Shown here piece after piece: positions 44,771 through 60,980 of a DNA stretch of 64,000 nucleotides. The translations under genes and the position numbers were made by a program. Under the pieces are notes generated by a model. That model was given only the letters and a program-made list of their open reading frames with translations. It was not told the DNA's origin and searched no databases. The stretch's first letter is position 1. Each line of letters starts with the position of its first letter. Location of the stretch: positions 1-64,000 of the IMG/VR virus record IMGVR_UViG_3300036851_000098; one strand, written 5' to 3'. The stretch is from a virus.

Positions 44771-45275
44771 TTCGTATCACTGGATCAACTACGACGAAGA
44801 AAAACTTAGGTTTCGCTATAAGACTCTTCGTGCGGCGCTCGAAGGAATAGAGCAGCATCGCTACGCAGCGATTTGTATCGCCGAAAGGATTGTCCAAGAT
44901 GATGAAAGAACAACCCTGGGACTGTACATCAATCAATGCATTCAATACAGAATGCACCCAGAAATTGTCCTGTTTTATTCTCCTAATGCATTCGGAACAG
45001 TTGACGCCATTGCGTATCGATATCGAGTGCTTAGGATCTCAGATCTCAAGACAGGAGCCACTCGAGTCTCAGAACATCAGCTGGAAGTATATGCAGCGTT
45101 TTTCTGTCTCGAGTACGAAATTAGTCCTTTCCACATGAGAGGAATTGAGCTTCGTATTTACAAAGACGGCAAAGTACAGGTGTACGATGCTGATCCCCAC
45201 TACATAAAGGGGCTCATGGATAAGATCGTTCGTTTCGACGGAATTCTCAACATGCTTCGAGAGGAGGTGTCGTAG
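44715..45275 (+). CDS. RecB/Cas4-like exonuclease with probable CTG start
   Basis: About 186 aa. The frame opens at a stop at 44712. CTG 44715, seven bases after GAGGAGGTG, is the first start and gives KHSHLEGQHAFLSPSSYHW, a conserved phage N-terminus that would be lost from ATG 44952. FGTVDAIAYR, RISDLKTGATRVSEHQLEVY provide the D, D-x-K and Q of the RecB/Cas4 nuclease core. Likely processes DNA ends for recombination. A programmed frameshift from the previous gene is a less likely alternative. Confidence 0.65.
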   Translation: MRFNKHSHLEGQHAFLSPSSYHWINYDEEKLRFRYKTLRAALEGIEQHRYAAICIAERIVQDDERTTLGLYINQCIQYRMHPEIVLFYSPNAFGTVDAIAYRYRVLRISDLKTGATRVSEHQLEVYAAFFCLEYEISPFHMRGIELRIYKDGKVQVYDADPHYIKGLMDKIVRFDGILNMLREEVS

Positions 45276-48139
45276 TGCGCGTTACTGAAGAAGACTACTT
45301 GATGCATTACGGCATCAAGCGTAAGTCAGGTCGGTATCCTTGGGGATCTGGTCAGAATCCTCTACAACGTTCAAAGACGTTCCTAGGAATAATCGAGCAA
45401 CACAAGAAAATCGACAAAATGACTGAGTCCGAGATTGCTAGGGCATACTCGGATAATGATCACAAACTCAGTGTCGCTGACATTAGAGCAATGAGGTCTA
45501 TTGCTGGTGCAGAAGTCAAGATGGATCAGATTCGTACTGCCCAACGTCTAAGAGATAAGGGTATGGGCGCGTCTGCGATTGCAAGGCAGATGGACCTAAA
45601 CGAGTCTACTGTCCGTTCGCTTCTGGAGCCAGGTAGGCAGGAGAAGTTGGACATTCTCATGAATACCGCCGACATGCTCAAGCGGCAGGTCGAAGAAAAG
45701 GGTATGATTGACGTCGGTTCAAACGTCAATCTAGATCTTCCGATTGGCGACAATCCTGCCACCCGAATCGGAATTAGTCCAGATAAGTTTGCTACTGCTC
45801 TTTCCATGCTCAAGGAAGAGGGCTACCAAGTTCATACTTTCAACGCCCCTCAGGTTGGAACTGGAGAGATGACCAAGTACAAGGTGCTGGTCAAGCCTGG
45901 GGTTACGCAGAAAGAAGCTTGGTCCAATCGTGACAACATTCGTCTGATCTCGGAAAAGACCGACGATCGTGGCAGAAATTTCACCGATTTTGGTATCCAG
46001 CCTCCGTTGAATGTCTCCTCCAAGCGAGTGGGCATCAACTATAAGGAGGATGGTGGTAGTGACGCGGACGGCGTGATCTATGTTCGTCCTGGTGTCCCTG
46101 ATATAACGCTTGGTAAATCTCGTTATGCTCAGGTTCGTATTGCGATTGATGGTTCACACTATCTCAAGGGTATGGCTGTCTACAAAGACAATCTACCCCC
46201 TGGCATGGATCTTCAGTTCAATACGAACAAGTCCAACACGGGCAATAAGCGTGACGCTATGAAACCCCTGAAGAGGGACCCTCAAACGGGTGAGGTCGAT
46301 AAGGATAACCCATTTGGTGCCGTCATCAAGAAGGATGGCCAGATCCTAGATAAGAATGGGAAAGTCAAGTCGGCGATGAATCTCATCAACGAAGAGGGTG
46401 ATTGGGATACATGGTCAAGAAACTTGTCCAGTCAGGTTCTCTCGAAGCAGAAGCCTGAACTAATTAAGACCCAATTGGATCTTACTCATGATCGGCGTAG
46501 AGCTGAGCTTGAAGAAATTCGCTCGCTCACTAACCCGCAGATCAAGAGAAAGCTTCTCGAAACTTTCGCTGAAGAGACTGATGCTGCAGCTGTGCATCTC
46601 AAAGCAGCAGCTATGCCTAATCAGGCTACTAAAGTCATTCTTCCGTCGAACAAAGTAAAGCCTAATGAGATCTTTGCTCCTACTTTCAGGGATGGAGACA
46701 AGGTTGCTCTTGTGCGATTCCCTCATGCGGGAACGTTCGAGATTCCAGAACTGACTGTTAACAACAAGTCACGTGAAGCAAAGGCTCTAGTTGGACTGAA
46801 CAAGGGTGGGACAGCAAGAGACGCTGTAGTCATTCACCCCAAGGTAGCAGAGAGACTATCTGGTGCTGACTTTGATGGCGACGCTGTCGTTGTCATTCCA
46901 AACAATCGTGGGCGGATTACCCATAAGCCCCCGTTGGAGGGACTTAAGGGATTTGATCCTCAAAGCGAATTTGCTCCCTATCATGGTATGAAGACCATTG
47001 ATGGAGGAACGTACAACGCTACTACAAAGAAGATCGAATACCCTAAGGACAAGGACGGTAACGAACGCAGTCCCAACAAGTCGAGAAAACAGCATGAGAT
47101 GGGTAACGTTACCAACCTAATCTCTGACATGACCATTCGTGGTGCTAACAACGACGAGATAGCTCGTGCAGTGAAGCACTCTATGGTGGTTATCGATTCT
47201 GAGAAGCATGTTCTCGACTTCAAGGCTTCGGAGAGAATCAACGGAATCACAGCTCTTAAGAAGAAGTATCAAGGCGTGCACCCTAAGACAGGGCAAGCAC
47301 GTGGTGCTTCTACGATCATTACTCGTGCTACTGCACAGACTCATCCTGTACAAAGGAAGGACGCATCAGCTGGTCCTGGCAGAACTAGGATCTCTAGTGG
47401 TACGGTTGACAATCGTACAGGTAAGAAGCTGTATGAACCTACGGGTAAGCGTAAGCGTGACGGTAGTCTAGCTACGTTTAAGTCTCAGAAGTTGGCTGAG
47501 ACAGATGATGCCTTTGAGTTGGTGTCAAAAGGTAGGGGCACTACGGAAGAACAGCTCTATGCTGAGCATTCTAATCGGCTTAAGGCTATGGCCAATGAGG
47601 TACGTAAAGAACTAATCCGTATCAAGCCCATCCCCTACTCGCCCTCAGCCAACAAGGTGTACAAGCATGAAGTGGATTCGCTTACAGCGAAATTGCGTAA
47701 GGCTGAAAAGAACGCCCCCCTCGAACGGCAGGCCCAGGCTGTAGCCAGGCGGATCGTTGCGGATCGTAAACGCGCAAACCCAGGGATGGAGAAGGACGAG
47801 GAGCGGAAGATCAAAGGTCAGGCGTTGACCGAAGCTCGACGTAGAACAGGAGCGGGTAAAGTACGCCTAGGTTCTGATGAATCCCCCATTACTGATCGTG
47901 AGTGGGAAGCTATTCAGAATGGTGCGATCTCGAATCACATGTTGGATAACATCTTGAAGAACTCTAACATAGACAAGATCCGTGAGCGCGCAACACCTAG
48001 AGAGAAGCCTGTGATGAGTAATGTCATGACAGCTAGGGCCAGGCAGATGATTGCGTCTGGGTACCCATTGTCGGTCATTGCTGAGCAACTGGACATTCCT
48101 GTGTCCACCCTTAAGTCTGGGCTTGAGGATGGGGGGTGA
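45275..48139 (+). CDS. RNA polymerase beta-prime-like protein with DFDGD motif
   Basis: 954 aa, GTG overlapping the previous stop, after GAGGAGG. The N-terminus contains LMHYGIKRKSGRYPWGSG (residues 9-26), a tag related to HYG…RWG motifs of phage head proteins. An HTH follows (DKGMGASAIARQMDLNESTV, about 90-115). VALVRFPHAGTFEIPELTV and VVIHPKVAERLSGADFDGDA (DFDGD at 532-536) align with the double-psi beta-barrel of RNAP beta-prime (R-x-P and HP…ADFDGD). Basic middle segments and a C-terminal HTH end it. This resembles single-chain YonO or crAss-like RNAPs. Transcription activity is inferred; the second barrel is not assigned. Confidence 0.65.
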   Translation: MRVTEEDYLMHYGIKRKSGRYPWGSGQNPLQRSKTFLGIIEQHKKIDKMTESEIARAYSDNDHKLSVADIRAMRSIAGAEVKMDQIRTAQRLRDKGMGASAIARQMDLNESTVRSLLEPGRQEKLDILMNTADMLKRQVEEKGMIDVGSNVNLDLPIGDNPATRIGISPDKFATALSMLKEEGYQVHTFNAPQVGTGEMTKYKVLVKPGVTQKEAWSNRDNIRLISEKTDDRGRNFTDFGIQPPLNVSSKRVGINYKEDGGSDADGVIYVRPGVPDITLGKSRYAQVRIAIDGSHYLKGMAVYKDNLPPGMDLQFNTNKSNTGNKRDAMKPLKRDPQTGEVDKDNPFGAVIKKDGQILDKNGKVKSAMNLINEEGDWDTWSRNLSSQVLSKQKPELIKTQLDLTHDRRRAELEEIRSLTNPQIKRKLLETFAEETDAAAVHLKAAAMPNQATKVILPSNKVKPNEIFAPTFRDGDKVALVRFPHAGTFEIPELTVNNKSREAKALVGLNKGGTARDAVVIHPKVAERLSGADFDGDAVVVIPNNRGRITHKPPLEGLKGFDPQSEFAPYHGMKTIDGGTYNATTKKIEYPKDKDGNERSPNKSRKQHEMGNVTNLISDMTIRGANNDEIARAVKHSMVVIDSEKHVLDFKASERINGITALKKKYQGVHPKTGQARGASTIITRATAQTHPVQRKDASAGPGRTRISSGTVDNRTGKKLYEPTGKRKRDGSLATFKSQKLAETDDAFELVSKGRGTTEEQLYAEHSNRLKAMANEVRKELIRIKPIPYSPSANKVYKHEVDSLTAKLRKAEKNAPLERQAQAVARRIVADRKRANPGMEKDEERKIKGQALTEARRRTGAGKVRLGSDESPITDREWEAIQNGAISNHMLDNILKNSNIDKIRERATPREKPVMSNVMTARARQMIASGYPLSVIAEQLDIPVSTLKSGLEDGG

Positions 48140-48143
48140 AACA

Positions 48144-48434
48144 GTGGCTCACGAACCTGAATACATGTTGACAACGGTAGACAACCCATTTGATCCTTGG
48201 ACACAGTGGGATGAATGGTTCGCTTACGATCAGAATTCTGGGTACAATACCCCCGGCCTCCTGGCCAGGGTAGCTCTTGCCTCTAACGAATTAGCTGAAG
48301 TGGATCAAGATCATGCTATCCAGACAGCTATCCAAGAGATCGTGCGCGAGAATGTTTCTGGTGTTCATACGAAAGTGAAAGAAGGAGAAGTACAAACACT
48401 TTCTAATCAGAACGAATCTGAGACCGAGGCATAA
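48144..48434 (+). CDS. Conserved phage protein (DxWFAYDxxxGYNT type)
   Basis: 96 aa, GTG. YMLTTVDNPFDPWTQWDEWF, DQNSGYNTPGLLARVA, HAIQTAIQEIVREN is a widespread siphophage protein, usually encoded between genes like the one before and the head or terminase module. Function unknown. Confidence 0.75.
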   Translation: MAHEPEYMLTTVDNPFDPWTQWDEWFAYDQNSGYNTPGLLARVALASNELAEVDQDHAIQTAIQEIVRENVSGVHTKVKEGEVQTLSNQNESETEA

Positions 48435-48788
48435 GGTTTATGTTAAATCTCAGGTATAGAAATTAGGTATCTCACATGAGTGAAGCACGACCCCCCTACC
48501 TCCACCTACCATGGATAGATAGTTAAAGAAAAACTTTTTCATACATGTTCTTTTCTTTTTTTTTGTAAAAGATTAGAAAAGAAATTTTTAGAACGGGTAG
48601 GGGGGAGGGGTCAAAAAAATTTAACCCCCCGTGTGCATCGCTCGGCTCCCAAAAATATCCCCGGGGGGATTTTTTCTGGGAACAATCTGGTATGGTACCC
48701 GGCATAAACCCCTTGGTAAGCGCGAAGAAGCCTTACTCATCAGTTCGAAACATAGTGCAAAAATTTTCAGATAAGAAAGGAGGCACCG
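48435..48788 (+). other. Intergenic region with complementary G/C tracts
   Basis: No gene. CCCCCCTACC (48491-48500) is fully complementary to GGTAGGGGGG (48596-48605). Poly-T tracts and a second GGGG/CCCC pairing lie near 48606-48625, and a CCCCGGGGGG block is near 48660. Together these could form long hairpins (transcript barrier), or mark a packaging or origin site. No TTCGCG-type promoter is visible. Confidence 0.5.
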
Positions 48789-49475
48789 ATGGGCATCCAT
48801 GTCAAGGGTGTTGAACAGCAGTACTCCAATCTGGGCCGCCAGATGGTTCATGATTCCAAGTCGCGTGCCTTCCCAACCGATGTCATCATCGACAAATCGA
48901 AGTGGGTTGATAAGAAGGTTCGTATCTACGACCCTGAGATCAATCCGAATCAGTGTCACGGCGAGTGCACGGGTTGCGCGAAAGCGATGGAGATGAATGC
49001 GCTTGGTAATCGGGTCGCCGGTGTTGTTCTCGGAATGAACAAAGCACACGAACTGTATTCGGCGGCAACTAAGATCGATCCATTCGAAGGAACGTGGCCG
49101 CCTGAAGATACTGGGTCGTCTGGTCTCGCTGCAGCGAAGGCGGCAAAAGCCTTAGGGCTCGGTGGGGCCTATCGTCACGTATTCGGTGGAGCAAACGAAG
49201 TTGTGCAGTTGATCATGCTCGGCCGCGTTGTCAACATCGGGACGTGGTGGTACGAAGGTATGTTCCACCCGAACTCATACAAAGTCATCGTGCCAACTGG
49301 CGACATTGTTGGCGGCCATCAGTACATCGCAAGAGGGTACGATGTCGACACCGACCGTGTCATGATTCGCTGCTGGTGGGGCTCGTTCCGAGATGTATGG
49401 ATCAAACGGTCGGACCTTCATAAGCTTTTACTGGATGGTGGGGATGCTCACATCCAGGATCGACTCAAGCCGTAG
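48789..49475 (+). CDS. Papain-like peptidase-fold phage protein
   Basis: 228 aa, ATG after AAAGGAGGCACCG. HGECTGCAKAMEMNALG with Cys at about residue 60, PFEGTWPPEDTGSSGLAAAK, YRHVFGG and the late GGHQYIARGYDVDTDRVMIR match phage proteins with the papain-like C1/C39 fold (Cys, then His). The third residue before the Cys departs from the usual Gln oxyanion position, so activity is uncertain. Possibly a structural or morphogenetic peptidase. Confidence 0.65.
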   Translation: MGIHVKGVEQQYSNLGRQMVHDSKSRAFPTDVIIDKSKWVDKKVRIYDPEINPNQCHGECTGCAKAMEMNALGNRVAGVVLGMNKAHELYSAATKIDPFEGTWPPEDTGSSGLAAAKAAKALGLGGAYRHVFGGANEVVQLIMLGRVVNIGTWWYEGMFHPNSYKVIVPTGDIVGGHQYIARGYDVDTDRVMIRCWWGSFRDVWIKRSDLHKLLLDGGDAHIQDRLKP

Positions 49476-49478
49476 CTT

Positions 49479-49595
49479 ATGACTGTCCTGTTTAGTGTGA
49501 TAAACATTCATTCGGGTGCAGTCATATCCACCGTGACATACGTTGTCGGGCTGAAGTCCGATCGCGTACTATCGGTATCGTCAGGTAAGAGATAG
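49479..49595 (+). CDS. Possible 38-aa peptide
   Basis: ATG shortly after the peptidase stop; no good RBS. MTVLFSVINIHSGAVISTVT, mostly beta. Low confidence. Confidence 0.3.
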   Translation: MTVLFSVINIHSGAVISTVTYVVGLKSDRVLSVSSGKR

Positions 49596-49617
49596 TACAC
49601 ACAACTAAGGAGGCATC

Positions 49618-49830
49618 ATGGCCCCTATCGAAGACGAGAATGTCCCGCACGAGGCTGAGCACGCTGCTGCAACCGATGCTCAGATGCGCCGCACTTCAGA
49701 TCACGCGGCCATCGCAGATCTCGCGGCCCCGTCCGCGGCATATGTGGAGGCTGAGCAGATCGCACAGACCAACGCGATCAATGCGATCCTCGACGTCCTC
49801 CGAGACGCCGAGCTGATCCCGAGCGCGTAA
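49618..49830 (+). CDS. Hypothetical helical protein
   Basis: 70 aa, ATG after AAGGAGGCATC. Ala/Asp-rich helices (HEAEHAAATDAQMRRTSDHA, AYVEAEQIAQTNAINAIL). Resembles short phage head-associated proteins but no firm family. Confidence 0.6.
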   Translation: MAPIEDENVPHEAEHAAATDAQMRRTSDHAAIADLAAPSAAYVEAEQIAQTNAINAILDVLRDAELIPSA

Positions 49831-49899
49831 ACTTCTGTGACGTGGGGTAGGCGCTTACTCAGGTCTGCCCCACCTCACGAAGAGGAAGGAGGTGAGTGT

Positions 49900-50145
49900 A
49901 TGAACGCTACCACTCACGAAGCAGTGGGAACCGTGATCGAGTATGTTGATCCGGTCGGTAAGAGTCACGATGCGCTGGTCACCGCTGTTTGGGGACCAGA
50001 TCTTGGTGTGAACTCCATTAACTTGGTGTTCGTTTCGGATAATCATGCGAAGACCGACTCGTGTGGTCGCCAGATTGTACGAGAAACTAGCGTCTCGCCC
50101 GAAGGACCAAACACAGCATACGGTAGATTTTACCGAATCAAGTAG
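49900..50145 (+). CDS. Hypothetical protein
   Basis: 81 aa, ATG after GGAAGGAGGTGAGTGT. Beta-rich (VGTVIEYVDPVGKSHDALVT). Unknown. Confidence 0.55.
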   Translation: MNATTHEAVGTVIEYVDPVGKSHDALVTAVWGPDLGVNSINLVFVSDNHAKTDSCGRQIVRETSVSPEGPNTAYGRFYRIK

Positions 50146-50213
50146 TCTCAATTGGGGTGGCGCCGACGAGGTACCTCAAAGCCCCGAGGCCATATACAAA
50201 CAGGAGAGACATT

Positions 50214-50447
50214 ATGCATCTTACAAAGGATGAACTCGCGCATCGGTTCCAGTTCCATCCGGCCGACGCACAGAACAAGAAGGAAGCTCATGAGGAAGTT
50301 CGCAATGTGTTGCTCGAGGCTGCCGACAAGATTGTTGACCTTACGGGTGCTCAGTCACGTGAACAATCGCTTGCGGTGACCCATCTCGAGGAAGCTATGT
50401 TCTGGGCAAACGCTGCCATTGCACGCGGCGATGGACCGAGGACGTGA
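50214..50447 (+). CDS. Acb2-like cyclic-nucleotide sponge (anti-CBASS)
   Basis: 77 aa, ATG after CAGGAGAGACATT. RFQFHPADAQNKKEAHEEVR, NVLLEAADKIVDLTGAQSRE, QSLAVTHLEEAMFWANAAIA follows the Acb2 family pattern (FxxHPP…K…R…REQSLAxTxLEEAMxWANAxIAR). Acb2 proteins sequester cyclic di- and trinucleotide signals and block CBASS abortive infection. The short helical protein has the right size. Its neighbours are head- and wall-related enzymes rather than early genes. Confidence 0.8.
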   Translation: MHLTKDELAHRFQFHPADAQNKKEAHEEVRNVLLEAADKIVDLTGAQSREQSLAVTHLEEAMFWANAAIARGDGPRT

Positions 50448-50890
50448 GCGCACTTCTCATGATTCCGCGACTTATTGTCGTGGACCGGGAGAACTTCACA
50501 CTCGACATCTATCGATGGCGTACGTTCAAACAACGTTACGATACTCAACATCGATATATGGTCACCGTAGGCAAGGAAGGCAATGAGACTCCTCATGGTC
50601 TGTACTTTGTCGAGCGTAAGACACGAGAAGCAGACTGGCGTATTCCAGAAGACCCGGACTATTCCGAAGAAAGCTGGGGAAGCATCGTTCCACACGGCGC
50701 CCCAGGCAATCCGTTCAAAAGCGGATTCATATCTCTGGGTGGAGATGTATCGGGCATTGGCATTCACGATACGACGTTTGAACCTCGAGTGGGTACAGCG
50801 TCTAGTCATGGGTGTATCCGGATGAGAACTGAGGATTTTCTGGAGATCTATGATAGGTGCAAGATCGGAACACCAGTCTATCTACACTAG
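50444..50890 (+). CDS. L,D-transpeptidase (YkuD) family protein
   Basis: 148 aa, GTG overlapping the preceding stop. RLIVVDRENFTLDIYRWRTF, HRYMVTVGKEGNETPHGLY, SGIGIHDT, SHGCIRMRTEDFLEIYD: His, and the catalytic Cys in SHGCIRM of YkuD domains (about residue 122). It can cross-link or edit actinobacterial peptidoglycan, where 3-3 cross-links are common. No signal peptide; it may act as virion-associated wall enzyme. Confidence 0.8.
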   Translation: MSALLMIPRLIVVDRENFTLDIYRWRTFKQRYDTQHRYMVTVGKEGNETPHGLYFVERKTREADWRIPEDPDYSEESWGSIVPHGAPGNPFKSGFISLGGDVSGIGIHDTTFEPRVGTASSHGCIRMRTEDFLEIYDRCKIGTPVYLH

Positions 50891-50932
50891 GAGAGTTGGC
50901 TAACAGGACTGTAGGGGACCTGGGAGGCAACA

Positions 50933-51253
50933 ATGTATTTCGTTGTACCACAGACGTGGGTTACTCCGGCGATAACCGCCGCGGCTCTTCATTTCGGGCC
51001 AATTGGCCAACCTGTGGAAGTTAAGTATCGGGCTCTCGATTGGGGGATAGGTACGATCGACAGACCGAACGTGATAATTGTGGATAAGCGACCAAGATGG
51101 GATTGGTCTAGAGTAAAAGCTCAATGCACGCTTGTTCATGAGTATGGACATTTGACAGGAAATAGACACTCAGACAATCCGAAATCAGTAATGTATCCGG
51201 TTTACAGATACCGGGTTTGCAAACGATGGCTAATACGCCATGGGGTGCTGTAA
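50933..51253 (+). CDS. Minimal metzincin-type metallopeptidase
   Basis: 106 aa, ATG after GGGAGGCAACA. HEYGHLTGNRH (about residues 67-77) is the extended metzincin zinc site HExxHxxGxxH, and SVMYP supplies a Met-turn. Only a small beta-rich N-terminal part precedes the site, so it is a minimal catalytic domain. No signal peptide. Target unknown: virion or wall proteins, or host factors. Confidence 0.7.
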   Translation: MYFVVPQTWVTPAITAAALHFGPIGQPVEVKYRALDWGIGTIDRPNVIIVDKRPRWDWSRVKAQCTLVHEYGHLTGNRHSDNPKSVMYPVYRYRVCKRWLIRHGVL

Positions 51254-51269
51254 AAGAAGGAGAGATAAA

Positions 51270-51650
51270 TTGACCAACGCACGGCCGAACACAAAGTTCT
51301 TGGACAATCTTGACGAGGCTACTCTTCGCCAAGTGTGTAGCAGGCTAGATGCGCTTGAACCTTATATTGCGGAGCATCGAGATCTTGTCAAACGTCGCCG
51401 TGCGTTGGAGATTCGCCTGGGCAAAATTTCAAAGTCGGATCGAGTGCGACAACTTCTTGCTCATCATCCTAATGGGCTTACACGAGCAGTGATAGGAGAT
51501 AAACTTGACATAACAGTCGGACTGTCGGGAGTGTTGGGTGAACTTAAACGACAAGGGCATATCGATCAGCCTGGGAAAGGACTCTATCGGCTCACTGACC
51601 TTGGCCATCAGGCCACGAGTTCAATGGTGGTTAACCAAAACGCAACCTAA
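51270..51650 (+). CDS. Winged-helix protein
   Basis: 126 aa, TTG after GAAGGAGAGATAAA. Coiled-coil start, then DRVRQLLAHHPNGLTRAVIG, DKLDITVGLSGVLGELKRQG and GKGLYRLTDLG give a winged helix. Overlaps the sigma factor frame by over 100 bases. Confidence 0.6.
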   Translation: MTNARPNTKFLDNLDEATLRQVCSRLDALEPYIAEHRDLVKRRRALEIRLGKISKSDRVRQLLAHHPNGLTRAVIGDKLDITVGLSGVLGELKRQGHIDQPGKGLYRLTDLGHQATSSMVVNQNAT

Positions 51651-52284
51651 TCGACAAGATCATGAAGATCTTGTAAGCGCGGTGATGATTCAGCTTTTAG
51701 AGGCTGAAGTAAGATTTACCGGTACTCCAGAAACTTGGCCAGCATATGCTTGGCCTAGAATCAAAGGCACTATTCTTGACGAAATTCGTAAAACTAAACC
51801 AAGAGGGTTTCGTCGACGGCGACACGATGATACACCTGTGATCGTGTCTATTAACGAATTCATTGGGGAAACCGATCAGACTCTAAGCGATACGATTCCT
51901 GATATAAAAGCGATCATCGATCATGATCCGGTCGCAGAACAGAAATTTGCTGATGCTATCTCCGCACTTTCTGTTAACGAACGGGTTGTGGTTGAGTTAA
52001 TGATTGACCAGGATCTGTCATCAGCCGATATAGCAAAAGTCCTTGGCGTAACTAATGGGCGAGTAAGTCAGATGGCGAAAGCTATTCGACATCAACTAGT
52101 AGAGAGTCTTGCGCACCCAATGCTACGCAAGGAGGCTCTTTGTTCTCTACGCTCTGAAAGCTTTCTCCGTGATCGAGTCCGGAGTGGTCACAGCGTAAGA
52201 GAGATAGCAGACGAACTAGGTGTAGCTCGAACCAGCGTTCGAGAATGGATGAGGCTATACCAAATTCAACCAGTCAATCGCTGA
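51538..52284 (+). CDS. Sigma-70 family RNA polymerase sigma factor
   Basis: 248 aa from GTG 51538; a TTG near 51592 is an alternative, because the first 20 codons overlap the preceding gene. RQDHEDLVSAVMIQLLEAEV and WPRIKGTILDEIRKTKPRGF resemble region 2 of sigma factors of the FliA/SigB type. LSVNERVVVELMIDQDLSSA, DIAKVLGVTNGRVSQMAKAI is region 4. A further HTH (SGHSVREIADELGVARTSVR) follows at the C-terminus, an uncommon addition. It probably directs late phage or host transcription. Confidence 0.75.
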   Translation: MNLNDKGISISLGKDSIGSLTLAIRPRVQWWLTKTQPNRQDHEDLVSAVMIQLLEAEVRFTGTPETWPAYAWPRIKGTILDEIRKTKPRGFRRRRHDDTPVIVSINEFIGETDQTLSDTIPDIKAIIDHDPVAEQKFADAISALSVNERVVVELMIDQDLSSADIAKVLGVTNGRVSQMAKAIRHQLVESLAHPMLRKEALCSLRSESFLRDRVRSGHSVREIADELGVARTSVREWMRLYQIQPVNR

Positions 52285-52325
52285 AGTAAGCGGTCAAACT
52301 AACACTAAAGAAAGGAGTGTGACTA

Positions 52326-52655
52326 ATGGCCAGATCAAGATCGTCTGATCGTAAGAACAACCCAGCGCGCACTCCTGAAGCGCGGGAGCTACAACTTGCC
52401 TCGGCGGCTTACGACCTAGCTGAGGAACAGCTCAACGCTGGCACAGCCTCATCGCAGGTAATCACCCACTTCCTGAAGATGGGGTCAACAAGGGAACGTC
52501 TCGAGCAGCAAAGCATCCAGCACGACATCGAACTCAAGAAGGTGAAGGCCGAGCAGATCGAAGCGCAGAAGCACATTGAGAGCCTCTTTGTCGAGGCCAT
52601 CAGTGCGATGCGGTCGTATCAGGGTGGGGAGCCAGTCGAGTCTCCGGACGAGTAA
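52326..52655 (+). CDS. Terminase small-subunit-like protein
   Basis: 109 aa, ATG after AAAGGAGTGTGACTA. ASAAYDLAEEQLNAGTASSQ, VITHFLKMGSTRERLEQQSI, and a Lys/Glu-rich coiled coil with AEQIEAQKHIES are typical of small proteins encoded near terminases in Gram-positive phages, thought to be small terminase subunits. TerL itself is 8 kb downstream. Confidence 0.6.
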   Translation: MARSRSSDRKNNPARTPEARELQLASAAYDLAEEQLNAGTASSQVITHFLKMGSTRERLEQQSIQHDIELKKVKAEQIEAQKHIESLFVEAISAMRSYQGGEPVESPDE

Positions 52656-52660
52656 GTTCT

Positions 52661-53071
52661 ATGCGAACTCGAACCTATAGAGAGCTTCGACGTATTGGAA
52701 CCTTTGAAGAGCGCTTCCAATATCTCTCGCTTTCTGGTGAAGTCGGAGCAGCGACTTTCGGCTTTGATCGTTGGGTCAATCAGCAGTTCTATCGTTCCAG
52801 AGAGTGGAAGCAAGCTCGCAACTATGTTGTTGTAAGAGACAACGGTTGTGATCTGGGAATTCCTGGTTTAGAAATTCAAAATGGGTATGTGGTTCACCAC
52901 ATGAATCCACTGACTCCAGAAGATTTGGAACGAGGTGGCGATTGGATTCTCGATCCAGAGTATCTGATCACCACCACACATCGCACGCACAACGCCATTC
53001 ACTACGGTGATGAGAGTTTACTCCGCAGAGCGCCTGTTGAAAGACGACCTGGGGATACAAAGCTGTGGTAA
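52661..53071 (+). CDS. HNH endonuclease
   Basis: 136 aa, ATG. YRSREWKQARNYVVVRDNGC, DLGIPGLEIQNGYVVHHMNP, LITTTHRTHNAIHYG: the HNH core (HH-M-P, later H…NAIH) of phage nucleases that commonly sit beside the terminase and aid DNA packaging. It directly follows the small-terminase-like gene. Confidence 0.8.
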   Translation: MRTRTYRELRRIGTFEERFQYLSLSGEVGAATFGFDRWVNQQFYRSREWKQARNYVVVRDNGCDLGIPGLEIQNGYVVHHMNPLTPEDLERGGDWILDPEYLITTTHRTHNAIHYGDESLLRRAPVERRPGDTKLW

Positions 53072-53198
53072 CTCATCCACAGTAAAGGATCGTGAACGAC
53101 CCGGCTTCGTAGGAGCTGAAGCGAGATGAGCGGGGAGGGCGATGGCCCCGGTTGAGTCGTCCAACCGTCGACCCGTTGAATAGACATAAAGGAGAGTA

Positions 53199-53918
53199 AT
53201 GTCAAGATTTATCCTCGATACGAGGCTGAGTGAAGCTCACTACGTTCTTTGTACGGAAGCCATTCGTCGTGGCATCATCACGCCGAGCGATCTTAACGAA
53301 GGTCGCCGGACAATGGACGAACAGTGGGCATTCTATAACAATCAGCCCCCATTGGCTGCATATCCTCGTCCGACTGCCCCACACATCTGGGCAGGTAAGG
53401 CGAATCATGCAATTGATGCCAACTCCTGGAATGGCGCGGCGCGACGTCTGGCCAACTTCTACGAGAGTCAAGGCGTTGACGTCGTTTTCAACGTTCCGGG
53501 TGAGAATTGGCACTTCCAGCCTACATCTGAGTCGCAGCTTCTCAATGCTGCTAATCGGATTCGGGATCGCCGCGATCTCCTAATTTCCAAAGTTGGAGAG
53601 ACCGAGCCACGTATCAACTTCTTCAAGTTCCAGCTGCACTACATTCACGATCCGGATACTGGGAAGTCATATTTCCAGCCTGGTCAGAAGCGCCCTGACG
53701 AAGGCTACGGAGACAAGTTCACTCCGGAGCTTGAAACTTCAGTTAAGAAGTTCCAACGAGATCACGATCTCAAGGCTGACGGCGTCATCGGGCCGATCAC
53801 CGATCGTAAGATCGATGCCGCGTATACGCGCGCGAAGAACAACCGTACACTCAAGTCTGTTGAGCTGCATGCCAAGGAGCGTAAGGCTCGGGTCGAGGCT
53901 GGAAAGGCGGCGATGTGA
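53199..53918 (+). CDS. M15-type peptidase with peptidoglycan-binding domain
   Basis: 239 aa, ATG after AAAGGAGAGTA. HAIDAN near residue 70 and ENWHFQ near 102 supply the H…D and E-WH residues of M15/VanY-like D-Ala carboxypeptidase or endopeptidase domains. FTPELETSVKKFQRDHDLKA, DGVIGPITDRKIDAA is a PG_binding_1 domain. The C-terminus is basic and Ala-rich. Likely one half of a two-gene lysin. Confidence 0.8.
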   Translation: MSRFILDTRLSEAHYVLCTEAIRRGIITPSDLNEGRRTMDEQWAFYNNQPPLAAYPRPTAPHIWAGKANHAIDANSWNGAARRLANFYESQGVDVVFNVPGENWHFQPTSESQLLNAANRIRDRRDLLISKVGETEPRINFFKFQLHYIHDPDTGKSYFQPGQKRPDEGYGDKFTPELETSVKKFQRDHDLKADGVIGPITDRKIDAAYTRAKNNRTLKSVELHAKERKARVEAGKAAM

Positions 53919-54710
53919 ATGACACTACCGAGTAGTCCGCCAATTTATCGGAGTTGGACGGAGCTAGTTGCACCGATTCGTTTTGGCGAAGGTCTGTCCA
54001 GCCATGGTTGGGAAACAGGTACCTGGCGTGTTTATGCATTGCAGACGGGCTTGAAGGCCGTTGGTCGTGACACTGTGCCAGATGGAATGTTTGGTGAGTA
54101 TACCAAGAAGCAAGTGATCGGATTCCAGGCTAATAATGGGCTTACAGCAGATGGAATCGCTGGACAGCTAACACAACGTGCACTTGTTAAGAAGGCTGCA
54201 ACGCGCTTGCGTGACATGTTTTACCCGCGCGTGCCTGAGGGCATGATGTTTGGTATTGCAATCAAGGAAACATCCGGTTTTGTCGGAGCGACCAACGACT
54301 TCGATCCGAGTCTGTCAGATCTGGGTTGCGATTGCGGTGTGATTCAGCGTCGGGTCAAAGGTCCGCCATATTCCATGGAAACTCTGTTGCTCGCGTTTGA
54401 TGTTGCCCAGGCATTGATCTGGGGAGCGGTTGACGACGGCGGCGGCGATCCAGGAAAGATGAAGGGATATTTGCCGCGTTACGATCGGCTTACTCGCGCA
54501 CAGCCGACTCTTTCTGAGCTGACTAAGCGTAAAGCCGTGATCATCGCTCACAACGCACCGTTCATGTATGAGCAGTTCGTTGACCACGGGCGTTTGACGA
54601 CTCCGAATGCGCTTGCGAAGTGGACACTCAAGCCTGGTGGCGGTCACTATACGCATGCCGAGTGGCTAGAAGTCTACACGAGCGAAGTTCTTTCATTCGT
54701 GACTGGGTAA
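53919..54710 (+). CDS. Lysin with PG-binding and lysozyme-like domains
   Basis: 263 aa, ATG immediately after the previous stop. WRVYALQTGLKAVGRDTVPD, GMFGEYTKKQVIGFQANNGL, DGIAGQLTQRAL is a PG_binding_1 domain (residues 35-85). The rest (GIAIKETSGFVGATNDFDPS, LSDLGCDCGVIQR, YLPRYDRL) resembles lysozyme-like glycosidases with a Glu in KETSG. Probably the muramidase half of the lysin pair. No signal peptide. Confidence 0.75.
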   Translation: MTLPSSPPIYRSWTELVAPIRFGEGLSSHGWETGTWRVYALQTGLKAVGRDTVPDGMFGEYTKKQVIGFQANNGLTADGIAGQLTQRALVKKAATRLRDMFYPRVPEGMMFGIAIKETSGFVGATNDFDPSLSDLGCDCGVIQRRVKGPPYSMETLLLAFDVAQALIWGAVDDGGGDPGKMKGYLPRYDRLTRAQPTLSELTKRKAVIIAHNAPFMYEQFVDHGRLTTPNALAKWTLKPGGGHYTHAEWLEVYTSEVLSFVTG

Positions 54711-54743
54711 CTACTTAGAACGCTAACCAAGGAGGCGATTTTC

Positions 54744-55097
54744 TTGGCACAGACCAAGGCAGAGCGTAGTGCAGCAGCGAAGAAGGCTGCCGCAACTCGG
54801 AAGAAGAACGCCAAGGCCACTGAACGAGGGGTCGAAGCAAGGAAGGCTCGGGCTATGCAGGCCACGGCCGAGGATGTCGCGTCGATGGAAGAGCCCCAGC
54901 AGGCTGAGGGTCTTTCTGAGTACCGACCGAAGCACAAGGCTCTTCAGGCTGCTGGTTTGGATCAGCAGGCCGCACATAAGGTGCGGGAGGCCGAGCGGCA
55001 GGCGGAACGTGACAGGCATCTTGCACTCACTGGTGATGTCAGTCGCGGTCTTGTTCGTAAGAGCCGTGGGATTCCGCGCAAGGGCCGGAAGAACTAA
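54744..55097 (+). CDS. Lys/Ala-rich virion-associated-like protein
   Basis: 117 aa, TTG after AAGGAGGCGATTTTC. Low-complexity, basic (AERSAAAKKAAATRKKNAKA) with further charged helices and SRGIPRKGRKN at the end. Possibly DNA-binding or scaffold; unknown. Confidence 0.5.
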   Translation: MAQTKAERSAAAKKAAATRKKNAKATERGVEARKARAMQATAEDVASMEEPQQAEGLSEYRPKHKALQAAGLDQQAAHKVREAERQAERDRHLALTGDVSRGLVRKSRGIPRKGRKN

Positions 55098-55127
55098 CAT
55101 TCAACATATTTCGAAAGGGGGTGGAGA

Positions 55128-55553
55128 ATGGAACAGAGCATTCTAAAGAGTACCAAGAAGTATGTGGGTCTTGATCCTGAAAACACAGCATTCGATCTTG
55201 ACATCCTCACCCTTATTAACTCGGCGTTCTCCACCATCCACGATCTGGGTGTGGGTCCTGATAGTGGCTTCGCTATCGAAGACGAAGAAACGGTGTGGCA
55301 GGATTTTCTTGATGAGGACCCCGTGCAGCTTGGGCATATCAAAATCGTCGTCTGGACTCGGACACGGCTGGGATTTGATCCTCCTACTCAGCAATTCCTT
55401 ATCGAGGCAATCAACAAGCAGCGTGAGGAAGCTGAGTGGCGACTCAACACGAACCGCGAAGCAGTCGCGTGGGTCGATCCTGATCCGGCTGATGTCGTAG
55501 ATGAAGACGAATTGGTCGTCCTCGACGGCGGCGACGCGGAGGATTCACCATGA
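55128..55553 (+). CDS. Hypothetical structural-type protein
   Basis: 141 aa, ATG after AAAGGGGGTGGAGA. DLDILTLINSAFSTIHDLGV, FDPPTQQFLIEAINKQREEA resemble head-tail-connector-like phage proteins, with an acidic tail. Overlaps the collagen-like gene by four bases. Confidence 0.55.
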   Translation: MEQSILKSTKKYVGLDPENTAFDLDILTLINSAFSTIHDLGVGPDSGFAIEDEETVWQDFLDEDPVQLGHIKIVVWTRTRLGFDPPTQQFLIEAINKQREEAEWRLNTNREAVAWVDPDPADVVDEDELVVLDGGDAEDSP

Positions 55554-58378
55554 GTCGAATCGTTTTCAAGCTTCGACGAGATTTCGCCGCAGATTGGACT
55601 GCGGCAAATCCTGTCCTTTCTGATGGCGAGCCTGGATTGGAGATCGATACCGGGAATCTGAAGGTCGGCGATGGAATCACCGCTTGGAATGAGCTGGATT
55701 ATTTTGTCGAAGCAGGATCGGTTGGGCCAGCAGGCCCGGCAGGTCCCGAAGGCCCGGCAGGTCCCGAAGGCCCGGCAGGTCCCGAAGGCCCTGCAGGCGC
55801 CGATGGCGCAGATGGCGCACCTGGTCCGGCAGGTCCAGCTGGTGAACCGGGTTCAGCAGGAGCTGATGGCGAAGACGGTGCCACAGGTCCGCAGGGCGCA
55901 ACTGGCCCCGCAGGGCCGCAGGGTGTTGAAGGACCGCAAGGCGGGCAGGGGCCTCAGGGTGCTGACGGCACTTCCTTCATTTACCAAGGTGAATGGAACA
56001 ATACCGATACATACAATCCTCTTGATGTTGTTCGCAGTCCAATTTCTTTTGATACGTATATTGCAGTTCAAGAGAATACTGGAGTAAACCCCGACACCGA
56101 TACGACGAACACGTATTGGGATCCGATTGCTATTGAAGGCGTTATGGGTCCCGAAGGCCCGCAAGGTGAGCAGGGGGCAACCGGTCCTGCGGGTCCTCAA
56201 GGTATTCAGGGGATTCAGGGTGAGCAAGGCGAAACTGGTCCTGCTGGTCCCGAAGGCCCCGAAGGTCCCGAAGGACCTCAGGGTGAGACCGGCCCTATGG
56301 GCCTACCCTCTCCTGGTGCTGTGTTGTTCTTCGAAACGTTCGACGTGGATCTTTCCAACTATTCACAGCCCTCACGGGGTGCTGTGTCTGGTGGATTGTT
56401 CAACGCGGTTACGCCGTTCAATGTGGACACTGTTATGTCAACAGTGCTCAAGTTCCCGTACGGCGTCATCATGCATGAAATCAAGTATGTAATCGGTTCG
56501 GGTGGCACCACTCCTAATGGCGTTGGCGTCATGCTTCGATATCTTGACGATAACAACTACGTCTTCGTCAGGCATGAGTATATTGCCAACCGTCTTGGTG
56601 TGTACAGGAAAATTGGCGGCGCTTCGCCCGCACTTGTTGGTCGAATCAATGTTGCGGCGACGGCTGTCGGAGCTACTCGTTGGCTGAGAGCTTGGCTAAC
56701 GCCAGATGGCTATGCGCATGCTGCACTATTTTCTTCTGACCCCAACGTCGATACTCCTCCGGATCCAATCTCGGTTACCTCAGAACAGGGAACGGTTCTC
56801 AGTTCGAACGCCACGTTTGGCGCTATGCGCAACGATTTGGCGGCTGGTCTATATTTCAATCTGCCTTCGGCTACGACGAAGATCGACCATCATAAGGTCT
56901 ACGTTGCATCTCGCGGGCCTAAGGGTGACACTGGTTCTACGGGAGTAACTGGTGCTACTGGGGCTACCGGAGCAACTGGTGCCACTGGGGCTACCGGACC
57001 TGCCGGGCCGACTGGTGCTGAGGGCGATTCGGCCTATGAGGTTGCTGTCGCGAATGGGTTTGTGGGAACTGAGGAAGACTGGCTCGAGTCGTTGGGCGGT
57101 ATCCAAGGTCCTGCGGGCGAAGATGGTTCGACATGGCATTCTGGAACAGGCGCTCCTTCTGGGGCTATCCATGATGTCGGCGATTGGTATCTGGATGATT
57201 CCAATGGCAATGTCTATGAGAAAACTGGTGCTTCTTCGTGGACGCTTCGAGATAATTTGACAGGTCCACAGGGTATTCAGGGTATTCAGGGTGATCCTGG
57301 TGAAGGTGGAAGCGCCGCTGTTTGGCGTTCTGGTACAGGAGCTCCTTCGGGTGCTCTCGGTAATATCGGCGACTGGTATCTGGATGATGCTAATGGCGAT
57401 GTATATGAAAAGACCGGATCGTCCACTTACACGCTTCGTGACAACATTATGGGGCCCGCTGGTGCTGATGGTACTATTGGTGCCGATGGCGCGGATGGAT
57501 CAGTTTGGCGTTCGGGTTCCGGAGCTCCTTCGGGAGCTCTAGGAGTAATTGGTGATTGGTATCTTGACACCGCTAATGGCGATGTGTATGAGAAGACTGG
57601 TTCTTCTACTTACACTCTGCGTGATAACCTTACTGGCCCAGCTGGTGCAGATGGAACTGACGGGTCGGTTTGGCGATCTGGTACTGGTGCACCTTCTGGT
57701 GCGTTAGGTGTAATTGGAGACTGGTATCTGAACGACGCTAACGGAGATGTTTACGAGAAGACTGGCTCTTCTACGTATACTCTGCGTGACAACCTTACTG
57801 GTCCTACGGGTGCGGCTGGTGCCGATGGCGCTGACGGAGCCGATGGATCGCCTGGCGCAGCCGGTGCGGATGGTGTTGATGGATCAGTTTGGCGTTCGGG
57901 TTCCGGAGCTCCTTCGGGAGCTCTGGGGGTGATTGGCGATTGGTATCTTGACACCGCTAATGGCGATGTGTATGAGAAGACTGGTTCTTCTACTTATACA
58001 CTTCGAACCAATATTACTGGGCCGCAAGGTCCTGCTGCATCAAACGTCTATTACCACACGTTTAATTTCACAGTCATGGGCACTGTGGCTGATGGAATCA
58101 CAGTTCCTGATGTTCGTATTAGGTTGGCGACGGGACAGACAGCTCGTCTAATTGTTGTGGAAGCGAATATTGTTACCGGCTCTATCACCATTCAACCGCG
58201 TATCAATGGTTCTAATGCAGGCTCTTCGTTCTCCACCGATTCGGATGCAGCTTGGGAAACGAGTGCAACATTGAACACCTCGCTATCTGATGGTGATGTG
58301 CTCGATTTTACAACCGCTTCTGGTGCATCTTCTCCGGCGAACCTGACTGTCGCATTTGTGGTGGAGTATACGATCTAA
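55550..58378 (+). CDS. Collagen-like tail fibre protein
   Basis: 942 aa. The N-terminal 60 residues (KLRRDFAADWTAANPVLSDG, EPGLEIDTGNLKVGDGITAW) are a known fibre/hyaluronidase-associated start. Many Gly-X-Y collagen-like runs (GPAGPAGPEGPAGPEGPAG etc.) alternate with a carbohydrate-type beta domain (about residues 260-440) and five copies of a SGTGAPSGALGxIGDWYLDD, NGDVYEKTG module. The C-terminal domain is beta-rich. It is a trimeric tail or baseplate fibre for host recognition. Internal DNA repeats suggest recombination-prone length variation. Confidence 0.85.
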   Translation: MSRIVFKLRRDFAADWTAANPVLSDGEPGLEIDTGNLKVGDGITAWNELDYFVEAGSVGPAGPAGPEGPAGPEGPAGPEGPAGADGADGAPGPAGPAGEPGSAGADGEDGATGPQGATGPAGPQGVEGPQGGQGPQGADGTSFIYQGEWNNTDTYNPLDVVRSPISFDTYIAVQENTGVNPDTDTTNTYWDPIAIEGVMGPEGPQGEQGATGPAGPQGIQGIQGEQGETGPAGPEGPEGPEGPQGETGPMGLPSPGAVLFFETFDVDLSNYSQPSRGAVSGGLFNAVTPFNVDTVMSTVLKFPYGVIMHEIKYVIGSGGTTPNGVGVMLRYLDDNNYVFVRHEYIANRLGVYRKIGGASPALVGRINVAATAVGATRWLRAWLTPDGYAHAALFSSDPNVDTPPDPISVTSEQGTVLSSNATFGAMRNDLAAGLYFNLPSATTKIDHHKVYVASRGPKGDTGSTGVTGATGATGATGATGATGPAGPTGAEGDSAYEVAVANGFVGTEEDWLESLGGIQGPAGEDGSTWHSGTGAPSGAIHDVGDWYLDDSNGNVYEKTGASSWTLRDNLTGPQGIQGIQGDPGEGGSAAVWRSGTGAPSGALGNIGDWYLDDANGDVYEKTGSSTYTLRDNIMGPAGADGTIGADGADGSVWRSGSGAPSGALGVIGDWYLDTANGDVYEKTGSSTYTLRDNLTGPAGADGTDGSVWRSGTGAPSGALGVIGDWYLNDANGDVYEKTGSSTYTLRDNLTGPTGAAGADGADGADGSPGAAGADGVDGSVWRSGSGAPSGALGVIGDWYLDTANGDVYEKTGSSTYTLRTNITGPQGPAASNVYYHTFNFTVMGTVADGITVPDVRIRLATGQTARLIVVEANIVTGSITIQPRINGSNAGSSFSTDSDAAWETSATLNTSLSDGDVLDFTTASGASSPANLTVAFVVEYTI

Positions 58379-59724
58379 TGCCTGCGCCTCCGACACCCAC
58401 TACCATTGGCGATGTTCTTTCAACAGTTAACTCAGCATCAGTGATTATTACAACCACTGATGCTGTAGCAGCTGGTGAATCGATTATCGTTGCGGCCATG
58501 AGAAAAACTAATGGTTGTGATTTGGCTCATGTTCAAGATTCTGGCGGAAATATTTATGAGATAGAAGGCACAACCACAACGGGTCTAGCGGGCGGAATTG
58601 CTGTTGCTACTGCTAAAACAGCATTACCTGTAGGATCGACAATTACAGTGACTTTCACTGTAACTGCTAATACGGATCCAAAGTATGCAGCAGCATATAA
58701 AACTTCGACAGCTGTTGTAATTGATCAAAGAGCACTAGCAACAGGCGCTGCTACAACTGCTTGGTCATCGGGCGCTACTGGGACTACTAGCCATGCCAAT
58801 GAGTTAGTATTCACAATGGCGGCAACTAATACATCACCTGTTTCTTCAACTCCTGATGGTTCTCAGATTGAACTGTATGACAATTCAACTACCGGTGCTG
58901 CTTTTGTAGCCCAATACGAATTGATTAGTTCTATTGGTACGCCAAGTGGTTCCGGAGTTTGGTCTACGTCTGCGACAAACTGGCTTGCTGTTTGTGTGAC
59001 TTTACGTGACGCATCGACAGGTATTACCAGAGAAACAGTCGGTACGCCTACCGCCGTTACCACATTTGGCCAGGGTGGACAAGGATTGACCTCGACAATT
59101 ACAACCACTGGAGCTATTCCATCTGGAGCTACAGCATTTCTTGTTGTTGGTAGTTCGGTTGTTGGCGCGGGTGTTCTTTCCGTTAAAGATAACGACGGTA
59201 ATCTATGGCATAGAGTCGCCAATCAGACATCAGCAAATTCCGTTAATGCTTCAATTTTCGCTCGTTATATGCGAGCTGGGTTGGCTTCTGGGAAGATTAT
59301 TACAATTACGTATGCCAGCGGATCATCTAAGACAGCACAAGCGGTTATTGGCTATATGACTGGGCGTGCTTTAGTAGATGCGGTTGCTAGCGCTGGTGGA
59401 GGATCTGGAACAGCGTGGTCCACAGGAGCGAGTGGCGCGACGGTCTTGTCTGATGAGCAATCGGTTGCCGTTGCGAATGCTAGTTCGGCGACATCGAATT
59501 CAAACACAACTGGTTCGTCTCCAGCAATGACTGAGATGAATGACATTAGTGGTAACTCCCGAGCTACGGTGCTTACCCGAGCAAGTTCGTCTATTGGCTC
59601 AGGTACTGCTGTTACTGCAGCAGGAACATGGGCTGCTGGGTCTACTTGGAACGCAGCGGTGGCAACATTTGCTGGCGTACTTGATGGTGTGGAGCCGTTC
59701 ACGAACTTTAATGTGATTGGCTAA
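58378..59724 (+). CDS. Beta-rich tail/adhesin protein
   Basis: 448 aa. Two long Ser/Thr/Ala-rich beta-sandwich repeats with recurring ATxGAAxTAWSSGATGTTSH and SGTAWSTGASG turns. No enzymatic motif. Overlap with the fibre stop (TAATG). Probably a fibre tip or adhesin. Confidence 0.7.
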   Translation: MPAPPTPTTIGDVLSTVNSASVIITTTDAVAAGESIIVAAMRKTNGCDLAHVQDSGGNIYEIEGTTTTGLAGGIAVATAKTALPVGSTITVTFTVTANTDPKYAAAYKTSTAVVIDQRALATGAATTAWSSGATGTTSHANELVFTMAATNTSPVSSTPDGSQIELYDNSTTGAAFVAQYELISSIGTPSGSGVWSTSATNWLAVCVTLRDASTGITRETVGTPTAVTTFGQGGQGLTSTITTTGAIPSGATAFLVVGSSVVGAGVLSVKDNDGNLWHRVANQTSANSVNASIFARYMRAGLASGKIITITYASGSSKTAQAVIGYMTGRALVDAVASAGGGSGTAWSTGASGATVLSDEQSVAVANASSATSNSNTTGSSPAMTEMNDISGNSRATVLTRASSSIGSGTAVTAAGTWAAGSTWNAAVATFAGVLDGVEPFTNFNVIG

Positions 59725-59771
59725 TGTTCGAAGCTATTCGTCAGCAATTGAAAAGGAGGTGAAGCTTCAAA

Positions 59772-60980
59772 ATGGGTAGTAATCTTGTCGTAGTGGCTAT
59801 CCCCGATGAGAACGATCGTGTATGGAAGGTCTCGAGCGAAAAGATTCCTCATCTCACCGTCCTCTTCCTGGGTGATGTGGACGAGGTTTCAAATCTCGAT
59901 CAGATCGTCCAGTTCGTGGAGCATGCGGCCGAGCAGACGCTGCGGCGGTTCTATCTTCCGGTGGACCGTCGCGGTGAGCTTGGCGCCGACAAAGCGGACG
60001 TTCTCTTTTTCAAGAAGGGACGTTACGACTTCAAGGCGATTCGAGACTTCCGAACGGCGCTTCTTCAGGACAGCAACATCAGGAAAGCGTACGATTCTAC
60101 AACACAATTCGAAACGCCGCCTGCGGTTGGTTCTCCTGGGCAGTCCTGGATCCCTCATCTGACTCTCGGCTATCCGACGTCGCCAGCCAAGCCTGAGAAG
60201 GGAGATCAGTATCCCGGATTCTACGACGTCTGCTTCCACAAGATCGCTGTGTGGGTGGGAGATTACGAGGGCTCCGAGTTTCTGTTGAAGGATCAGTGGG
60301 AAGAGATGGAGCTAGCTGAGGTTGCGCCAATGGACGTAGCTATGAGCGATCTGGTAAGTCGGAATCAGGCTCGTATTGCTCTCGGCCTTAAGGAGATCGA
60401 AGCCGAGCTCGAACACTATGGCGTGAAGGGTATGCGTTGGGGACAGCGTAGGTCGGAGCGTCAGCTTGCTGTGGCTCAGAAGCGAAGGAATGACGCTAAG
60501 ACTCTGGAAGAAGCTGCTGCTCGTAGAGGCGAAGGGGCTACTCGTGGAATCCTTGAGCGACTCGCTGCTCAAGAGCGAAGCGGAGCGCTTAAGCTTGAAG
60601 CCAAAGCTAGGTCAAGACAAGAGAAATTGGCTGAGAAAACGGCTACAGTAGAGCCTACCGCTAAGTCTGTTGTTCCTCCTGGGTCGAAGCGTAAGACTAA
60701 AATCGATGTTGAAGGTGGAGAAAATCATCCGGCTACGGAAGACGCGCTTAACGTAGCTAAGGCTCAAGTTAAATTGCAAAAGAGTGGTGCTGCTGCTCTC
60801 TCTAATAAAGAGCTTCGTGAAGTTGCTAATCGGCTGCAACTAGAGCAACAAGTCAAGCAGCTGTCTACGTCTGGTGGACGTAAGTTTGTAACTAACCTGT
60901 TGAGAGAACAGGGCAAGCAACAGACTCAAAGTCTTATCAACGAGCAGATCAGAGACTTGCGGCGTCGCCAGGCAGCATAA
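59772..60980 (+). CDS. 2H-phosphoesterase fused to HYGVKGMRWG head-tag
   Basis: 402 aa, ATG after AAAGGAGGTGAAGCTTCAAA. Residues 1-200 contain the two signature H-x-T motifs, IPHLTVLFLGD (about 25-35) and IPHLTLGYP (about 127-135), of the 2H phosphodiesterase fold (LigT/Acb1-like). EHYGVKGMRWGQRRSERQ (about 213-230) is the tag found in phage head-associated and muF-type proteins. A long Ala/Glu/Lys coiled coil follows. Potential roles: RNA or cyclic-oligonucleotide cleavage, and capsid packaging. The link to anti-CBASS is inference. Confidence 0.7.
   Translation: MGSNLVVVAIPDENDRVWKVSSEKIPHLTVLFLGDVDEVSNLDQIVQFVEHAAEQTLRRFYLPVDRRGELGADKADVLFFKKGRYDFKAIRDFRTALLQDSNIRKAYDSTTQFETPPAVGSPGQSWIPHLTLGYPTSPAKPEKGDQYPGFYDVCFHKIAVWVGDYEGSEFLLKDQWEEMELAEVAPMDVAMSDLVSRNQARIALGLKEIEAELEHYGVKGMRWGQRRSERQLAVAQKRRNDAKTLEEAAARRGEGATRGILERLAAQERSGALKLEAKARSRQEKLAEKTATVEPTAKSVVPPGSKRKTKIDVEGGENHPATEDALNVAKAQVKLQKSGAAALSNKELREVANRLQLEQQVKQLSTSGGRKFVTNLLREQGKQQTQSLINEQIRDLRRRQAA

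Follow-up and report, generated by a model that had tools for sequence, protein, structure and literature searches.

Conserved short tags on a predicted RNA polymerase and a 2H phosphoesterase: probable virion-loading signals in a lineage of siphophages

Two otherwise unrelated proteins encoded in the viral DNA analysed here (hereafter the window: 64,000 nucleotides, positions 1 to 64,000 of the record IMGVR_UViG_3300036851_000098) carry short HYG-containing segments that are probably subtypes of a single virion-loading tag, i.e. of a disordered, conserved docking peptide for proteins transported in the phage particle. One variety, which we call tag B, is found at the N-terminus of a predicted single-chain RNA polymerase, and the other, tag A, follows the catalytic domain of a 2H phosphoesterase. 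This reading is based on the modular recurrence of the tag, the relatedness of A and B, their predicted disorder, the location in the head gene cluster, the association with one type of capsid protein, and the labels of the tagged proteins in Lactococcus phage 1706. The first-pass annotation of the window had proposed a common capsid-targeting signal. A shared signal for virion entry is indeed the interpretation best supported by the disorder, the head-cluster genes and the 1706 labels, but it does not take the form of one identical tag.

Two tags and the proteins that carry them

Tag B (LMHYGIKRKSGRYPWGSG, 45299-45352, plus strand) comprises residues 9-26 of the 954-aa polymerase ORF (45275-48139, plus strand), whose N-terminus reads MRVTEEDYLMHYGIKRKSGRYPWGSGQNPLQRS; the H of its HYG is residue 11 (nt 45305). 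Tag A (ELEHYGVKGMRWG) is located at residues ~212-224 of the 402-aa 2H ORF (59772-60980, plus strand), with the H of HYG at residue 215 (nt 60414). From residue 208 on, this ORF reads EIEAELEHYGVKGMRWGQRRSE, and residues 208-229 (60393-60458, plus strand), which include ELEHYGVKGMRWGQRR, match the Pfam family DUF7211 (PF23847, E=1.8e-11). The HYG...WG motif noticed at first pass is thus present in both proteins, and a search of all six frames of the window with a loose HxG...WG pattern returns these two matches only, as does a search of the whole 79,866-bp phage record with the DUF7211 profile. Tag A scores 43.6 bits (47.8 bits in the own-genome scan) against a curated cut-off of 27, and is a clear member of this family, to which Pfam assigns no function. 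Tag B, with 16.3 bits (E=9.6e-4 in its own genome), falls below the cut-off, and by sequence it appears to be a relative of DUF7211 that we do not file as a member.

The subtypes can be described by the patterns HYGVKGM[KR]WG (tag A) and HYG-x6-RYPWGSG (tag B), and have in common the LxHYG head, usually preceded by acidic residues. Of the single tag suggested in the first-pass annotation, the common head and a relationship at the level of profiles have stood up, with the common part starting a few residues before HYG; the tags are nonetheless best described, judging from their sequences, as two related subtypes.

In the AlphaFold models, which are otherwise confident, the pLDDT drops to ~30-50 across both tags (32-49 in tag A), so we rejected the possibility that the motif forms part of different folded domains, which the first-pass annotation had named as the finding that would speak against its idea. 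Despite the predicted disorder, H, G, G, W/Y and G hardly vary across both tags, and in tag B the residues H11, G13, S18-Y21 and G24-G26 are invariant among 71 homologues. Because they combine disorder in the models with several invariant residues, the tags bear the signature of short linear (docking) motifs. A chance origin was also rejected, both by the controls of the tag-A HMM described below and by codon shuffling, which left none of the 47 occurrences of the tag-A motif found in 20 loci.

The polymerase (phrog_4291, E=0; AF2 pLDDT 86.9) possesses a helix-turn-helix region at residues 82-113 (45518-45613, plus strand; Pfam HTH_7, E=6.5e-7) and a catalytic DFDGD motif at residues 532-536 (46868-46882, plus strand), which is invariant in the alignments of homologues. 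The best folds matched by the model are those of QDE-1 (Z 15.3 over 383 residues) and of the phage RNA polymerases 8f72/8f5m (Z about 14). The DxDGD loop and the double-barrel fold of the model are those expected of a single-chain two-barrel RNA polymerase. The label "RNA-dependent RNA polymerase" attached to such proteins in public records reflects the QDE-1-type likeness, the activity itself being a prediction. Sequence searches of solved structures gave no match for the single polymerase and 2H proteins, and with a profile of the polymerase core only weak matches around DFDGD and no clear relatives. The Foldseek/VIA rows are insufficient for the assignment of a specific subfamily; the RNA polymerase of crAss phages is absent among the fold matches listed, which carries no weight either way. 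A sigma-factor-like protein that has an additional helix-turn-helix at its C-terminus (51538-52284) is encoded in the stretch from the polymerase to the head genes, and could be a late transcription factor.

The 2H ORF contains two HxT motifs, H27-L-T29 (59850-59858, plus strand) and H129-L-T131 (60156-60164, plus strand), with the H and T columns invariant. The best folds for this domain in the comparison of the model with known structures are LigT and CPDase, and with two HxT/S motifs in a LigT-like fold the protein qualifies as a member of the 2H superfamily, the Pfam 2H matches being just under the cut-off. Tag A is followed by a C-terminal helical tail (60456-60977, plus strand; helices 229-291 and 323-401 in the model), which contains an LSNKEL...RLQLEQQ module conserved after the last tag in the relatives. 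The gene is located directly upstream of that for the large terminase subunit TerL (60995-62740, plus strand; PF20441, E=3e-35; phrog_9). A virion structural protein of phrog_4247, from the same head lineage, is encoded at 55128-55553 (plus strand; E=9.5e-39). In the region 55550-59724, between this gene and the 2H gene, there are genes for a collagen-like protein (GXY) and for a protein of 448 aa that has no family matches; in Gordonia phage Tanis and in phage 1706, the corresponding genes adjoin.

Relationship of the tags and their recurrence in unrelated proteins

To avoid selection on the tag, polymerases were retrieved by their catalytic core alone, which yielded 150 complete ORFs. The strict tag-B pattern is present in 138 of them, and most of the others exhibit spaced variants such as HYGVGKLDGAPGRGSGRYPLGSG. 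The HMM of tag A, which gives 15.8 bits for tag B of the window, scored above 5 bits in 86% of the 150 polymerase N-termini and in none of the 2,405 controls (1500 shuffles and 905 interior windows). The direct comparison of the two tags by hhalign aligned 13 columns in the LxHYG half, by which, as far as the sequences tell, their resemblance is mainly carried. This limited overlap, together with the sub-threshold DUF7211 score of the polymerase tag (16.3 bits, cut-off 27), would also suit a scenario that we regard as unlikely, in which A and B are unrelated, tag A being DUF7211 in head-cluster proteins and tag B a polymerase-specific extension that has converged on LxHYG. The controlled profile test favors relatedness instead, as do the matching sets of phages with A and B, and two further observations argue in the same direction. 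First, in locus L145 three neighboring proteins of one phage, none of them a polymerase and two of them GNATs, carry tag B, and GNATs elsewhere bear tag A. Second, the ORF L379:2113-5235 encodes, as a natural fusion of 1041 aa, a 2H phosphoesterase followed by tag B and a whole polymerase, i.e. the counterpart of the arrangement of 2H, tag A and helices in the window. Common descent of the two tags, with subsequent divergence, is therefore likely. The notion that tag B is an N-terminus exclusive to polymerases was rejected, given its presence on the GNATs of L145 and on a protein of L178.

Tag A occurs in 925 places in 240 phage records, about four per genome, with up to 7-8 tagged ORFs in a phage and up to four copies in a protein. 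When 404 tagged ORFs of the retrieved loci (almost exclusively metagenomic viral contigs) were compared by BLAST with the tags masked, they fell into 112 groups; this number overcounts the families, since short ORFs join poorly, and dozens of unrelated attachments still remain. The Pfam domains in tag-A proteins include 2H, GNAT, glutamine-deamidase-like, ATPase and portal domains, and helical tails are also among the attached parts. In "beads-on-a-string" proteins, two to four copies of tag A separate different domains, as in L057:1854-3452 (2H, tag, GNAT, tag, helices), L061:4265-6484 (four tags), L107:1-2040 and L018:1636-4755. Such an architecture may be read in another way, namely that the prohead protease recognizes or cleaves the tag and that the multi-tag proteins are polyproteins cut in the procapsid; in line with this, the matching capsid protein is fused to a protease. 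Nonetheless, the near-invariance of H, G, G, W and G over ~10 residues exceeds what a cleavage site usually needs, and we regard processing as the primary role of the tag as very improbable. By analogy, the two roles may be compatible, since the targeting sequence of phage T4 is also cleaved off.

Tags of non-homologous proteins are more similar within one genome than between genomes (0.72 vs 0.63; 0 of 1000 permutations). At the sequence level, this would be expected either with one local receptor or with copying of the tag between genes.

Two additional segments deserve a comment. A candidate third tag (tag C, LxH..YDPVKAHEYY), with the same LxH start as A and B, forms the N-terminus (LMHRYDPVKAHEYYERTKKLKGRKRG / LQHYASPYYDPVKAHEYYMRTRELKGRR) of an ORF beside the portal gene in L405:3336-3926 (the phage of the window itself, about 66076-66666, just past the window), L305:16867-17694 and L359:14100-14549. 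Directly upstream of the portal gene of the same phage, a 144-aa ORF (L405:1495-1926, about 64235-64666) has a C-terminus, KEALEHYGVKVTR, that resembles a truncated tag A.

Gene neighborhood, capsid type and virion labels

The neighbors of tag-A genes encode TerL, the portal, the head-maturation protease and the virion structural family. Tag A is present in 53 of the 55 loci that were fetched with the polymerase, and thus not chosen by tag A, and in these loci the median distance from a tag-A gene to the nearest TerL, portal or MCP match is 0.55 kb, compared to 4.6 kb for random points. In Gordonia phage Tanis, 2H-tag A precedes TerL, after which come three further tag-A proteins, the portal and MCP-protease; the tag-B polymerase is encoded at the opposite extremity of the linear map. 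In Rhodococcus phage ReqiPepy6, TerL and portal are separated by seven tag-A proteins, and a Hungatella prophage has the order polymerase, 110-aa tag-A protein (L312:13402-13731), TerL, portal and MCP-protease.

In a set of 50,697 phage records, the polymerase is found in about 255, tag A in 240, and the MCP-protease fusion in 258. Compared as per-genus counts rather than as lists of records, tag A, polymerase and MCP-protease fusion agree exactly in Arthrobacter (95/95/95), Gordonia (55/55/55), Streptomyces (54/54/54), Curtobacterium (7/7/7), Rhodococcus (4/4/4) and Microbacterium (4/4/4), and are close, albeit not identical, in Lactococcus, where the three counts are 13, 10 and 13. Related TerL proteins are found in 2,172 records, as opposed to ~250 for these three features. 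The co-occurrence is partly a matter of shared ancestry; the lineage is deep (its polymerases are less than 60% identical), and the tag has been kept with the same capsid type.

Lactococcus phage 1706 (EU081845) has only two tagged ORFs: orf7, which has two copies of tag A and no 2H domain, and orf75, which is the polymerase with tag B. Both were deposited as "structural protein", a label that does not separate head from tail. Structural, portal, capsid or tail labels are carried by 15 of the 76 ORFs of this phage, including both tagged ones, an association that with such small numbers reaches only P=0.037. Garneau et al. (Virology 2008) reportedly identified 15 structural proteins in 1706 virions by LC-MS/MS, which we take to be the source of these labels; in Rhodococcus phages, the same label was assigned by similarity to 1706. 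Open papers searched for proteomic data on the 1706 group yielded nothing of use. Two small untagged ORFs from the DNA-metabolism region of 1706, orf62 and orf71 (L245:45052-45330 and L246:4659-5012), were also deposited as structural proteins.

Alternatively, the tag may be an assembly motif that tethers proteins of a structural or scaffold-like kind to the shell or portal vertex while the head is built, with the enzymes being part of that complex and not injected. The Hungatella protein upstream of TerL, the minimal variant from Firmicutes, consists of just a tag and short helices, the helical module comes after the last tag, and there are one tagged portal and one tagged head-morphogenesis protein, all of which fit such a role. 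On the other hand, the tag is joined to catalytic domains of various kinds (2H with both HxT motifs, GNAT, deamidase-like, polymerase), which make better sense as cargo than as scaffold. Classical scaffolds exit before maturation, and the tagged orf7 and orf75 are among the listed structural proteins of 1706. We therefore consider it improbable that the tag serves assembly alone, and prefer to regard it as a loading signal.

A proposed model of virion loading and its parallels in other phages

We propose that, in this lineage of siphophages, gene fusion attaches the tag to whatever protein the phage is to carry in its particle. The tag would probably bind a component of the lineage's own procapsid during assembly, with the portal, the MCP-protease fusion and a small protein beside these as candidates, and would presumably suffice for loading. 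The tagged carriers, presumably located in the interior of the head, would then exit with the DNA and be injected. The polymerase would act as a virion RNA polymerase, entering the cell together with the DNA to transcribe the early genes, and the 2H enzyme may be co-delivered for host takeover or counter-defence, acting on 2'-5'/cyclic nucleotides or RNA ends.

The closest functional analogy is offered by the capsid targeting sequence of T4, a short conserved peptide common to diverse internal proteins, which routes these proteins, as well as GFP or a nuclease, into the head core (PMC3012670). As in T4, the tag is what otherwise unrelated proteins have in common, and their internal location in the head is presumed. 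The T4 sequences are N-terminal propeptides of 10-20 residues (PMC5694885); tag B is N-terminal as well, but tag A is internal (residue 215 in the 2H protein) and repeated in other proteins. The tag probably works like a capsid targeting sequence, but given the internal position of tag A, and with cleavage possible and sufficiency presumed, we do not file it as one.

RNA polymerases are known as virion components of several phages. In P23-45, the vRNAP is fused to the tape measure (PMC10770324), the virions of crAss001 contain a multi-protein RNAP cargo (PMC10172136), and phiKZ-type phages provide another precedent for a virion polymerase (PMC5694885). The polymerase described here shares the two-barrel DFDGD architecture with the P23-45 enzyme, but differs from the P23-45 and crAss polymerases in being a separate 950-aa enzyme with a disordered N-terminal tag. 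According to the deposited label, its 1706 homologue is carried in the virion, a further parallel to the virion polymerases, among which those of N4 and the phiKZ-type phages are also to be counted. Another parallel is provided by the injected effectors of the polyvalent/MuF type, in which catalytic domains, including 2H, GNAT and ART, are strung together and encoded with the virion genes (PMC5512222); here, in contrast, the units are separated by repeated short tags, and the Pfam matches listed for the scanned proteins include no MuF domain. A full-text search of the literature for the tag motif or the DUF7211 family name found no paper.

It is tempting to generalize these observations to the MCP-protease-fusion siphophages of Actinobacteria and Firmicutes, which may use a family of short, interchangeable "zip codes" (A, B and perhaps C). 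These would direct enzymes of an open-ended range, a virion RNA polymerase among them, into the particles, and a single protein could hold several cargo domains with repeated tags in between. We give this wider scenario an even chance. If the tag does serve virion loading, DUF7211 would mark those "hypothetical" proteins of many cultured actinophages and gut prophages that ride inside the particle, and it would become clear how a lineage of siphophages brings its own enzyme for early transcription. A short, portable tag would then also be at hand for the loading of proteins into such capsids.
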